From: Pseudomonadales bacterium
Lineage (GTDB): Bacteria; Pseudomonadota; Gammaproteobacteria; Pseudomonadales; Azotimanducaceae
Direction: 5' to 3'
Length of the DNA: 33,872 nucleotides
NCBI GenBank assembly: GCA_029249645.1
Contig: JAQWWC010000221.1
Location: 1-33,872, forward strand
The stretch's first letter is position 1; each line of letters begins with the position of its first letter. Shown here in pieces: positions 1 to 3,516 of this stretch. The position numbers were made by a program, and so were the translations under genes. The notes beneath the pieces were generated by a model. It had not been told where the DNA came from. It saw only the letters and a list, made by a program, of their open reading frames with translations, and did no database searches.

Positions 1-63
1 GTTATCAAAGCAGCATTTTCATCGAGTCACAAGTTAAAACAAAGCTAGACGCAGTGATTCCAA

Positions 64-3000
64 TCAAAGGTTCCAGATGAAACCGGTGTTCTCAGGGTTC
101 GATAAGTTCCAGATGAAGCCGGCGTTCTTAGGGTTCGATAAGTTCCAGATAAAGCCGGCATTCTCAGGGTTCGATAAGTTCCAGATAAAACCGGCGTTCT
201 CAGGGTTCGATAGATTCCAGATAAAACCGGTGTTCTCAGGGTTCGATAAGTTCCAGATGAAACCGGCGTTCTCAGGGTTCGATAAGTTCCAGATAAAGCC
301 GGCGTTCTCAGGGTTCGATAGGTTCCAGATAAAACCGGCATTCTCAGGGTTCGATAGGTTCCAGATAAAACCGGCCTGACTGAAACTTGAACCGGTGTCA
401 GAGAGCGCCCCGTGATGGGCCTTCAAGCCGATCAAATAACTACTCAGTAATTGCGCGTCCACGCCAAATCGCCCGTCAAACGCAAGCCCCTCCAAGCCCT
501 GAAAGGACCGATTAAGCAAATACCCTTGGGACTCCAAATCGGACTGCGCCCAATTCAGATTATTGGCCGCCAGGCTCTCGAGCGTGACGTACTGGCCCTC
601 GCGCTTGAGCGCTGTCTCATCGAACATCGAGACTGTATTAAACGCCTGTAACACGGCTGCCGTCTCACTTGCAGTCTGATGAAACACTGCCGTCGTCGAG
701 GTCAAAGCCACTTGACCCGAATCCTGCAAAGGCAGACCCTGTTCGATCTGAGCGCGGCTGTTGTAAGGCCCCTTGAAGTGTGTCCGTCCGGCAATATCCG
801 CGTTCAAATCCAAGCCTTGATTGGCGCACCCAGTTTCTTTCGACGCGACTGCGGCAACCGCATCGATCAAACCAGCACCTTGCTGAAGCACGCTAAAAGT
901 GTGCTGACCATCCTTTGTCGCCATTCTCGCAGAAGCCATCAACCGACATTTCACATCATTCGGTGACAGAGAAGGATCATCTTGCAACATTAAAGCTGCA
1001 ACACCGCTGGCTGCGGCGGCGGCTTGTGACGTCCCAGACATCAAATAATAATGATAGCCATCATGAAACTCTGGGTGTTCGAACGTGACGGTTGAATCAT
1101 CTGGAATCAGGCCCATCATATGTCCGCCTGGCGCGGTCATTTCCGGCTTTGCGAAGCCCTCGAGCGTCGGGCCAACGGATGAAAAACTGGCAACATAATC
1201 ATCGCTCTCATCATCCATCGTGTAGTGATCGGTTACAGCACCTACAGTAATCACATAGGGCACGTTGCCAGGCGCTCCGATCGTCATCGCATCTGGTCCA
1301 GAATTACCCGCCGAAACGACAACCGTGATCCCAGCATCCCACGCCGCCATAACGGCTTGATTAATCGGGTCCTGCCAATAATGCGAGACCGCATCTCCTT
1401 GAAATGCCAATGTCAAAACTTTGATATTAAAACGATCGCGATTCTTAACCACGTAGGCGATCGCGCTCACGACATCCAGGTAGGTACTTTTACTTTCATC
1501 GTTAAAGGCCTTTACCACAACGAGATCGACGTCTGGCGCGATACCGTGGTAACTACCGGTACGCCTGCCTGCTCGATCATAGCTTGCTTCTGAAGAGGCC
1601 AGTACGCTCGTGATATGAGAGCCATGGCCGTTTTCGTCGACCATGACAGAACGTTCCTCATTCTTAATGGCATCAAAAAATGACGACACTCTGGATTGTC
1701 CTTCAGTATTAAGCGCCAGCGCGGGATGCGCCCAAGCACCGGTATCAATCACCGCAACCCCAACCCCTCGACCCGTTAAACCCGCTCGGTGCAACTCGTC
1801 CGCTCTGATCAATGTTGGGAAAAAAGAATCTCTGTTTTCGCCTTGAATCGGTAGATTGCGGCGGGATAAGAATTCAATTTTCTGGCCGTTTTTAAAGGAT
1901 AGATTGAAGGCATACTGACTTTCATCTCGGCTCGGTGCTTCGACAAACGTAACCTCAACCATTGCCGAGCCACCTGGATGCAACGCGCCCTCAAGGCTCA
2001 ATCTCGAACTTTCGACGCCAAGATCGATAGGCGCCAGCCCCGTTTGCTTGACAACGACACTTGTCAGCGCAGCACCGTCCGGGACAGTCAAATCTAAGGT
2101 TGAAAATTCCAACGGTTTAAGGCCTTGATTGACTAACGACCAACGAACGAGCTGCCCCTCAAACTCAAGTGTTGCGGCGCTCTTAGCGGAAAAATTCAAA
2201 CCAGTTAACGCTACCTGTTGCTTTTGGTGCAGTGGACTAGGCATCGCGTTAAGGCTTGCAACCTGCAGTCGAGAGTCCAGTAAAAAAGCTGGGGGATTCT
2301 GTCCCATCAACTCATCGAGCAATCCCGATTTTGTCTGAGTGTCGGGTAAAGCCGTGTCAAATTCACGCCAAAGAAAGCGCGCAAAGCCTGCACCGTACTC
2401 GCCCCGCGCTGCAGCAATGGGCATTGCGACTAGAGCGCTGGGAGCTGGTTTCGTTTCTGATGCTTTTTCGTCAGTCCAAAGATACCGTGATAGGTTAATC
2501 TCAGGTGTCTTCGCACCGTCCCAGAGGTAACGTGATAATTTCGGTTCAGAAGTCTTTGAACCTTCCCAAAGATAACGCGACAATTTCAATTCGGAGGTCT
2601 TTGCGCCTTCCCAGAGGTAACGCGATAATTTCGGTTCAGCAGCCTTTGAGCCTTCCCAGAGGTAACGTGATAATTTCGGTTCGGAGGTCTTTGAACCTTC
2701 CCAAAGATAACGCGACAATTTCAGTTCGGAGGTCTTTGCGCCTTCCCAGAGGTAACGCGACGATTTCGGTTCAGCGGCCTTTGAACCTTCCCAAAGATAA
2801 CGCGACAATTTCGATTCAGGAGTCTTTGAACCTTCCCAAAGATAGCGACTCATCGTATCAGACGGGTTGAGGCCTGATTTAAATAGATCCACCTGATCAG
2901 ATGCCATGGCGTCAGTCTTCACCGTGCCAACGACTTGTCGCTGAGCGCTTGACTGCGCTGACATTGTGTTGCGCGCAGCTTGTAGATTATCACCACGTAA

Positions 3001-3105
3001 ATTCAGCGCGGGCGCATTAGCACTTATAACCAACGCAAGCAGCGGTAGCCAACCTTTTTGACACAGTTTTAAGACATTCCTAATTAATGTTCGTCGCCGA
3101 CTCAT
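64..3105 (-). CDS. Secreted S8 (subtilisin-like) serine peptidase with N-terminal 15-aa and C-terminal 12-aa tandem repeat arrays
   Basis: 1013-aa ORF. Basic N-terminus plus hydrophobic stretch (MSRRRTLIRNVLKLCQKGWLPLLALVISANA) fits a signal peptide. Subtilase triad motifs: GVAVIDTGAWAHPAL (Asp), DENGHGSHITSVLAS (His), LMSGTSQAAAAASGVAALML (Ser). SD AAAGGAG lies upstream of the ATG. Confidence 0.93.
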   Translation of the reverse strand: MSRRRTLIRNVLKLCQKGWLPLLALVISANAPALNLRGDNLQAARNTMSAQSSAQRQVVGTVKTDAMASDQVDLFKSGLNPSDTMSRYLWEGSKTPESKLSRYLWEGSKAAEPKSSRYLWEGAKTSELKLSRYLWEGSKTSEPKLSRYLWEGSKAAEPKLSRYLWEGAKTSELKLSRYLWEGSKTSEPKLSRYLWDGAKTPEINLSRYLWTDEKASETKPAPSALVAMPIAAARGEYGAGFARFLWREFDTALPDTQTKSGLLDELMGQNPPAFLLDSRLQVASLNAMPSPLHQKQQVALTGLNFSAKSAATLEFEGQLVRWSLVNQGLKPLEFSTLDLTVPDGAALTSVVVKQTGLAPIDLGVESSRLSLEGALHPGGSAMVEVTFVEAPSRDESQYAFNLSFKNGQKIEFLSRRNLPIQGENRDSFFPTLIRADELHRAGLTGRGVGVAVIDTGAWAHPALALNTEGQSRVSSFFDAIKNEERSVMVDENGHGSHITSVLASSEASYDRAGRRTGSYHGIAPDVDLVVVKAFNDESKSTYLDVVSAIAYVVKNRDRFNIKVLTLAFQGDAVSHYWQDPINQAVMAAWDAGITVVVSAGNSGPDAMTIGAPGNVPYVITVGAVTDHYTMDDESDDYVASFSSVGPTLEGFAKPEMTAPGGHMMGLIPDDSTVTFEHPEFHDGYHYYLMSGTSQAAAAASGVAALMLQDDPSLSPNDVKCRLMASARMATKDGQHTFSVLQQGAGLIDAVAAVASKETGCANQGLDLNADIAGRTHFKGPYNSRAQIEQGLPLQDSGQVALTSTTAVFHQTASETAAVLQAFNTVSMFDETALKREGQYVTLESLAANNLNWAQSDLESQGYLLNRSFQGLEGLAFDGRFGVDAQLLSSYLIGLKAHHGALSDTGSSFSQAGFIWNLSNPENAGFIWNLSNPENAGFIWNLSNPENAGFIWNLSNPENTGFIWNLSNPENAGFIWNLSNPENAGFIWNLSNPKNAGFIWNLSNPENTGFIWNL
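67..375 (-). repeat. 36-bp tandem repeat array encoding (A/T)GFIWNLSNPEN, 8 full copies plus a partial ninth (TGFIWNL)
   Basis: Read directly from DNA and translation. The last 103 residues of the subtilase are only this repeat, followed immediately by the stop. Confidence 0.97.
2446..2850 (-). repeat. 45-bp tandem repeat array encoding SRYLWEGSKxxExKL, 9 copies
   Basis: Residues 86-220 of the subtilase: nine consecutive 15-aa units each starting SRYLW, with the last units diverging (SRYLWDGAKTPEINL, SRYLWTDEKASETKP). Confidence 0.96.
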
Positions 3106-3175: not shown

Positions 3176-3454
3176 TGCACAAGCCGTGCCAAAACCATAA
3201 ATTCTTATAGGTTATTGAATTAATTCATTTTTATTTATCAGCAGGCGTCGGTGCGAGCGACGTTTGACGGTTTCTTGACGGTTTTTGACGCCCATGGCAA
3301 AAATTGCCGACGCGCTCAGCAGCAATTCGCGACGATAGGCGTCAGAGACGATAGCCTTCAGCAGGGAAGCACTTGGGATACAGCAAGCCTTCAAGACTAT
3401 TACGGATCAGGCGCCGTCCAGTATTTTACCGGTGATGCTGCTATTCCGTGACGC

Positions 3455-3512
3455 AGGCAATCAAGGCAATCAAGACGGTCAGGCAATCAGGCAATCAGGC
3501 AATCAGGCAATC
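3455..3512. repeat. 8-bp short tandem repeat (aggcaatc), 4 perfect contiguous copies at 3481-3512 plus two looser copies at 3455-3471
   Basis: Direct reading: aggcaatcaggcaatcaggcaatcaggcaatc, a few bases downstream of the malate synthase stop codon. Confidence 0.95.
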
Positions 3513-3516
3513 AACG

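Follow-up and report, generated by a model that had tools for sequence, protein, structure and literature searches.

What would a secreted protease do with short tryptophan repeats at both of its ends? The question is raised by a gene for a subtilase of peptidase family S8 that lies at one end of a 33,872-nucleotide contig of a Pseudomonadales bacterium (GenBank assembly GCA_029249645.1, contig JAQWWC010000221.1; the whole stretch is called the window below). We find that the C-terminal tryptophan (Trp) array is the common property of a large and apparently undescribed protease family, and that genes of this family recurrently lie beside a sensor with a β-propeller of the Reg_prop/Y_Y_Y type. 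A functional link between the protease and the sensor genes is highly probable, and we favour it much more strongly than either direction in which it might run.

The family was collected by a catalytic-domain scan of 84,980 species genomes, which returned 267 relatives; the best 78 loci were kept, 77 after one duplicate had been removed. They come from Pseudomonadales, Alteromonadales, Chromatiales, Steroidobacteraceae, Woeseiaceae, Acidobacteriota and Chloroflexota as well as one deltaproteobacterial metagenome-assembled genome (MAG), and nearly all of their readable tails carry a C-terminal Trp array. Culturable carriers of the family include Thiocystis violacea DSM 208 and Alteromonas salexigens. 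A preliminary description of the locus, made from the letters alone, had tentatively suggested that short Trp repeats occur in other bacterial subtilases, which these tails bear out. No paper on subtilases with Trp repeats or Reg_prop neighbours was found in the open-access literature, a restriction that makes this weak evidence of novelty.

The partner was first exposed by clustering the neighbouring open reading frames (ORFs), and the kinase of another assembly (G003) then served as query over the 61 loci with enough readable flank. A Reg_prop sensor lies at most 2.1 kb away in 31 of these 61 loci; in 24 it lies on the same strand within 150 bp, often overlapping the protease gene (-37 to +4 bp). 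The sensor-adjacent loci are scattered over the protease tree, and 14 ordinary S8 loci have neither a Trp tail nor Reg_prop within 1.5 kb. Across 98 related genomes, a Y_Y_Y sensor is present in all 17 that encode a Trp-tail subtilase or a tail and in 5 of the 81 others (Fisher test, 6e-15, a value that ignores phylogeny). Seen from the sensor side in the same genomes, a manual tally places 18 of 27 assessable Y_Y_Y genes next to a Trp-tail subtilase, a contig-end array or an orphan tail, the remainder being other Reg_prop sensors. Within the genus of the window, every genome with Reg_prop also has the subtilase or its tail, except for G011, whose Reg_prop sits at a contig edge. A class-wide sample yielded strong-scoring Trp tails in three of 274 genomes, two of them with the sensor beside the tail on the same contig; the tail profile was used for this sample because a search for TGG at every 18 bases was dominated by low-complexity DNA. 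The output domains of the adjacent sensors differ (HisKA_2 in the window's genus, hybrid HisKA or GGDEF elsewhere). Since these modules vary while the propeller stays constant, the link is to the sensing part.

How does the window itself fit this pattern? It is contig C221 of a MAG with 364 contigs. The same genome holds a second match to the C-terminal array at the extreme end of contig C123, followed by the same 68 bp after the stop codon; mismatches between the array copies number 13 in 232 bases. Because the array and 68 identical downstream bases are common to both contigs, C123 continues the window locus, and a separate stand-alone array in this genome was rejected in favour of the other side of an assembly break. 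Beyond the break lies a kinase matched by PF07494 and PF07495 and confirmed by reading its sequence. Its near-identical counterpart in G003 (1226 residues; L032) contains Reg_prop repeats, Y_Y_Y, PAS, HisKA_2 and HATPase_c by Pfam. On inspection, the next protein shows features of receiver, GGDEF and EAL domains, and its homologous neighbour in locus L101 matches the Pfam models Response_reg, GGDEF and EAL. The arrays break assemblies: in the window genome and in several congeners the array lies on one contig and the kinase on another, which may explain why single contigs did not make the pairing obvious. The break also leaves the copy number of the C-terminal array uncertain, as the true array may be longer or strains may be mixed. 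In the G003 assembly (L032 7325-8144) the DNA array runs past the subtilase stop in other frames, with at least one frameshift that is either real or a sequencing error.

A congener, G001, separates the tail from the enzyme. No protease of the Trp-tail family was found in its genome. An ORF of 145-161 residues with an ambiguous start (L039 5305-5790, minus strand) encodes a signal peptide with the C-terminal tail immediately after it and no N-terminal array, and overlaps the start of the Reg_prop kinase gene. Its apparent origin is an in-frame loss of about 780 residues. The tail shares 56% identity with its G013 homologue over 123 codons, with a ratio of nonsynonymous to synonymous differences per site (pN/pS) of 0.37. 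Since G001 keeps the tail beside the kinase after loss of the protease, this one case suggests that the tail is of value to the sensor by itself. Another short frame, of 55 residues, occurs in Thiocystis violacea (L213 1441-1605, plus strand) near two complete Trp-tail subtilases; it has Trp hexapeptides and a WVNQE end without an S8 domain, and is either a fragment or a small tail protein. A 77-residue Trp-array frame in G222 does not count as an orphan tail, being a contig end.

How might protease and sensor act together? Reg_prop/Y_Y_Y modules are extracytoplasmic double propellers that sense ligands (PMC3243724). We infer that the tail contacts such a propeller. The secreted or periplasmic protease would then work as one unit with the neighbouring transmembrane sensor, its repeated aromatic-[ILM]-W-[NST] strands docking on the propeller as a multivalent ligand. 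The sensor would register whether the tail is present, processed or released and relay this to the neighbouring GGDEF-EAL response regulator, and so to the turnover of cyclic di-GMP (c-di-GMP). That the Trp tail is the sensor's ligand, and that the sensor signals through a c-di-GMP or phosphorelay output that the protease is present or processed, is the reading we tentatively prefer, at somewhat less than an even chance. Its broadest form would be self-encoded protein-ligand signalling across several phyla, with subtilase Trp repeats as cognate ligands of Reg_prop sensors and the propeptide array of one clade as competitor or maturation read-out; this we regard as rather unlikely.

Several observations weigh against the ligand reading. 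About half of the evaluable loci have no Reg_prop gene nearby, and the neighbours in Chloroflexota are other propellers (PQQ_2, SBBP) or further subtilases. The orphan tail is one case with a degenerate array, and the constraint measured on it dates in part from before the deletion. The Reg_prop sensors known so far have oligosaccharides as ligands (PMC3243724), and a sensor that regulates the expression of its neighbour would also give a conserved neighbourhood. In an alternative reading the sensor responds to an environmental ligand (a glycan or peptide) by regulating the protease gene beside it, much as hybrid two-component systems (HTCS) do with their polysaccharide loci; the tail of the protease would serve in substrate binding or cell-surface retention and not as a ligand. 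Reg_prop sensors of HTCS bind oligosaccharides and control adjacent degradative loci (PMC3243724), the tandem subtilases that precede one sensor in some genomes resemble a catabolic cluster, and response regulators of the sigma54-activator type lie upstream in Pseudomonadales relatives. However, sensors with a GGDEF output, which have no direct control of transcription, are equally adjacent, G001 keeps the tail where the enzyme is gone, and no other feature of the family is as uniform as the tail, even though its units diverge. This is the main rival reading, and we consider it doubtful.

What, then, is the tail? Trp-Trp spacings, tabulated for all but two loci, are six residues in 469 of 772 cases and twelve in 185. 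Typically [GSA][FYM][LIVMA]W[STNDA][DNGK] is repeated about ten times and closed by [VI]NxWVxQE. This conserved end is absent from the window protein, which stops after TGFIWNL; its contig mates and congeners likewise end in GFIWNL. The WVxQE end was lost in the window's genus. Given family spacings of mainly 6 and 12, the 12-residue unit of the window appears to be a GFIWNL hexapeptide extended by six filler residues; both spacings are mixed in the tail of L040. Units are near-identical within one protein and differ between species (GFIWNLSNPENA, GYIWNMSDADNA, GLLWTYGDVENQ, GYLWTD, SMLWSD). Some genomes have two to three tandem Trp-tail subtilases ahead of one Reg_prop sensor. Longer runs exist: Thalassomonas sp. 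has five in tandem (L221 1079-14426, plus strand), with one gene between the run and the sensor, and an Acidobacteriota MAG has three directly before one sensor (L224 3652-16704, plus strand).

Searched against 12 genomes of several phyla, the tail profile matched almost only S8 ORFs, apart from the Thiocystis fragment, one 550-residue ORF with only a Ser motif recognised and a few weak matches. If the tail were a general signal for sorting or anchoring, many unrelated proteins should carry it too, and it is therefore unlikely to be one. The same restriction to one enzyme family, rather than many surface proteins, bears on the idea that the C-terminal array is a β-solenoid or amyloid-like stack by which the protease is anchored or multimerised in the extracellular matrix, with adjacency reflecting a shared biofilm (c-di-GMP) programme. 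The GGDEF/EAL partners suggest such a biofilm link, and AlphaFold2 (AF2) draws the window array as a regular solenoid in which every 12 residues contribute a 7-residue strand and a bridge, at a predicted local distance difference test (pLDDT) score of 62-77. Yet AF2 is prone to unrealistic β-solenoids on near-perfect repeats (PMC11795689), for which reason the drawing is not counted as evidence, and in its model of the hexapeptide relative L136 the protease is confident and the array has no fold (pLDDT 21-35). The adhesive or amyloid role raised in the preliminary description found no specific support, the neighbouring Reg_prop sensor pointing to signalling instead, and a structural tail appears distinctly improbable to us.

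Lower still do we rate a multi-copy peptide precursor, whose units, cut out by the protein's S8 domain or by some other protease, would diffuse as signals to the propeller kinase, comparable to multi-copy pheromone precursors. The homogeneity of units within a protein, their fast divergence between species and the existence of an orphan tail without protease fit this idea; no conserved cleavage site was identified between units, and many tails are about ten uninterrupted hexapeptides with the conserved WVxQE end, resembling one module. We regard it as very unlikely.

The N-terminal array has a different history. Defined as at least two YLW[DE]-type motifs, it is confined to a single Pseudomonadales clade, and most family members have none; it is a lineage-specific novelty in a family whose catalytic domain is ordinary. 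Two distant relatives (L015 673-2667, L016 850-2790) have a single [AG]Y[LH]W motif after a signal or membrane segment together with a SYLWAN C-terminal array, and this single motif is possibly the ancestral state. Because the array sits ahead of an I9-like prodomain in relatives, it is part of the pro-region. Under the ligand reading the RYLW array would be a later, clade-specific addition to the pro-region with a similar aromatic-L-W core, would leave with the propeptide at maturation and might compete for the same propeller site. The two arrays as a matched, interacting pair are not supported: most members have the C-terminal array only, AF2 gives no confident N-terminal array (pLDDT about 25 in the window model), and copy numbers at the two ends are unrelated. 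In eight relatives complete at both ends, N- and C-terminal copies number, for example, 2/17, 6/34, 8/33 and 11/9 (Spearman -0.10). With repeat numbers thus unrelated, the nine RYLW motifs facing nine GFIWNL motifs in the window protein are a coincidence.

In the window protein (Table 1) the architecture described at the outset holds. An S8 catalytic domain (PF00082, E 1.3e-44) lies between two Trp arrays, and the counts of nine SRYLWEGSKxxExKL units and of 8.5 C-terminal units up to the last residue were confirmed, the latter subject to the copy-number caveat above. Tandem Repeats Finder (TRF) detects both arrays in the DNA (36 bp x 8.5 and 45 bp x 7.4). The ninth N-terminal unit is degenerate, and the C-terminal array has eight full 12-residue units and a half unit with the stop codon directly after it. 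Between units, pN is 0.12 against a pS of 0.50 in the N-terminal and 0.017 against 0.30 in the C-terminal array. Both arrays are under purifying selection as peptides while their DNA drifts; because the differences are mostly synonymous, the peptides are kept by selection and not by chance. That the arrays correspond to no standard add-on was likewise corroborated: profile searches with the window protein and relatives found no Pfam or NCBIfam model that covers either. Matches to DUF7486, LED_rpt, Phage_XkdX and Strep_his_triad were weak, under cut-off and taken as chance.

By its sequence the protein is an S8 subtilase with predicted proteolytic activity. The triad motifs VIDTG, GHGSH and GTSQA fit the S8 patterns DTG, GHGxH and GTSxA and are invariant in two alignments of relatives, as is the oxyanion Asn in the alignments. 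Foldseek against the PDB gave subtilisins only, among the matches listed. NCBIfam matches to type VII mycosin and cyanobactin PatA fell far under the cut-offs, reflect shared S8 homology only and were discarded. Weak I9 matches precede the protease in relatives L136, L040 and L133; an I9-type prodomain, which is common among subtilases though not universal, is undetectable in the window protein with the relatives' prodomain profile (-1.7 bits).

Table 1. Features of the Trp-array subtilase gene and its partner genes. Positions are those of the window, except for the last two rows.
Feature	Position	Strand	Basis or remark
Trp-array subtilase gene, 1013 residues, ATG start	64..3105	-	ORF and Pfam
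Probable Sec signal peptide, residues 1 to about 33, RRR n-region and hydrophobic core WLPLLALVISANAPA	3007..3105	-	Inspection only
N-terminal array, nine 15-residue SRYLWEGSKxxExKL units, residues 86-220	2446..2850	-	Sequence, TRF
Lone tenth aromatic-L-W motif ARFLW, residues 242-246	2368..2382	-	Sequence, alignment of relatives
β-Sandwich (Ig-like) domain between pro-region and protease, residues about 307-413	1867..2187	-	AF2 strands, pLDDT mostly 76-84; kept in relatives; named by inspection
Peptidase S8 catalytic domain, residues 445-737; triad D454 (VIDTG), H494 (GHGSH), S693 (GTSQA), oxyanion N601	895..1773	-	Pfam, invariant columns, PDB relatives
Linker with degenerate motifs (NLNWAQSDLESQGYLL), residues 786-910, aligned to irregular Trp motifs of relatives	376..750	-	Alignment
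C-terminal array, 8.5 units of AGFIWNLSNPEN, residues 911-1013, up to last residue	67..375	-	TRF and sequence
Start of the intergenic region ahead of the Reg_prop kinase	1..63	-	Window positions 1-68 identical to contig C123 (L034)
Reg_prop kinase, 1226 residues	L034 7995-11675 (contig C123)	-	About 0.2 kb downstream of subtilase
GGDEF-EAL response regulator, 697 residues	L034 5909-8002 (contig C123)	-	Same strand, next after kinase

The wider neighbourhood varies. In relatives with an N-terminal array (L066, L069, L071-L075, L077) a response regulator of about 1000 residues lies 200-520 bp upstream of the subtilase, and the one in L072 comprises a receiver and a sigma54-activator domain by Pfam. 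In the window's genus malate synthase occupies this upstream position instead, and in the window an eight-base tandem repeat (CAGGCAAT x 7.2, positions 3454-3513) lies between the two genes. In two Chloroflexota loci (L107 3410-5818, L097 6366-8651, both plus strand) the gene 4-43 bp after the subtilase encodes a β-propeller of another kind, either PQQ_2 joined to a further S8 domain or SBBP repeats.

In comparison with known subtilases (MEROPS S8, PF00082; nearest solved chains 3afg and 9ues, Tk-SP of Thermococcus kodakaraensis) the window protein has the same catalytic domain, triad and oxyanion Asn, and its relatives share the I9-type prodomain ahead of the protease. It differs by its C-terminal Trp array, the Trp array in the pro-region, the lack of a recognisable I9 and the conserved partner sensor. 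The AF2 drawing of the 12-residue array is alike to short-period β-solenoids such as the insect antifreeze proteins, with one coil per repeat, in a model of low to moderate confidence that is prone to artefact. Reg_prop sensors are known mainly as glycan sensors. Their conserved pairing with proteases that end in repetitive Trp peptides would point to proteins or proteolysis as the input of this widespread sensor class, with the Trp tail as ligand candidate. The recurrent neighbourhood suggests that enzyme and tail belong to a signalling unit and do not act as a stand-alone protease.

On the sensor side, the closest comparison is with the HTCS of Bacteroides, which sit beside the locus they serve (PMC3243724). 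The window partner likewise combines Reg_prop repeats, Y_Y_Y and a histidine kinase; in contrast to HTCS it neighbours a protease and not glycan enzymes, it has no DNA-binding domain on the same chain, and GGDEF replaces the kinase in some relatives. Strictly, an HTCS has all two-component domains on one chain, whereas here the kinase has no receiver and a separate receiver-GGDEF-EAL protein lies next to it. A second parallel, by analogy only, is PorZ, a double seven-bladed propeller that has been likened to HTCS sensors of the BT4663 type and is required for cargo maturation and removal of the C-terminal domain (CTD) (PMC5121618). Neither is PorZ a kinase nor PorU an S8 protease, and the CTD of the type IX secretion system is a β-sandwich, whereas the window system pairs a kinase with an S8 protease and a Trp array; what both have in common is a propeller that works, or in our case would work, with a protease on C-terminal domains.

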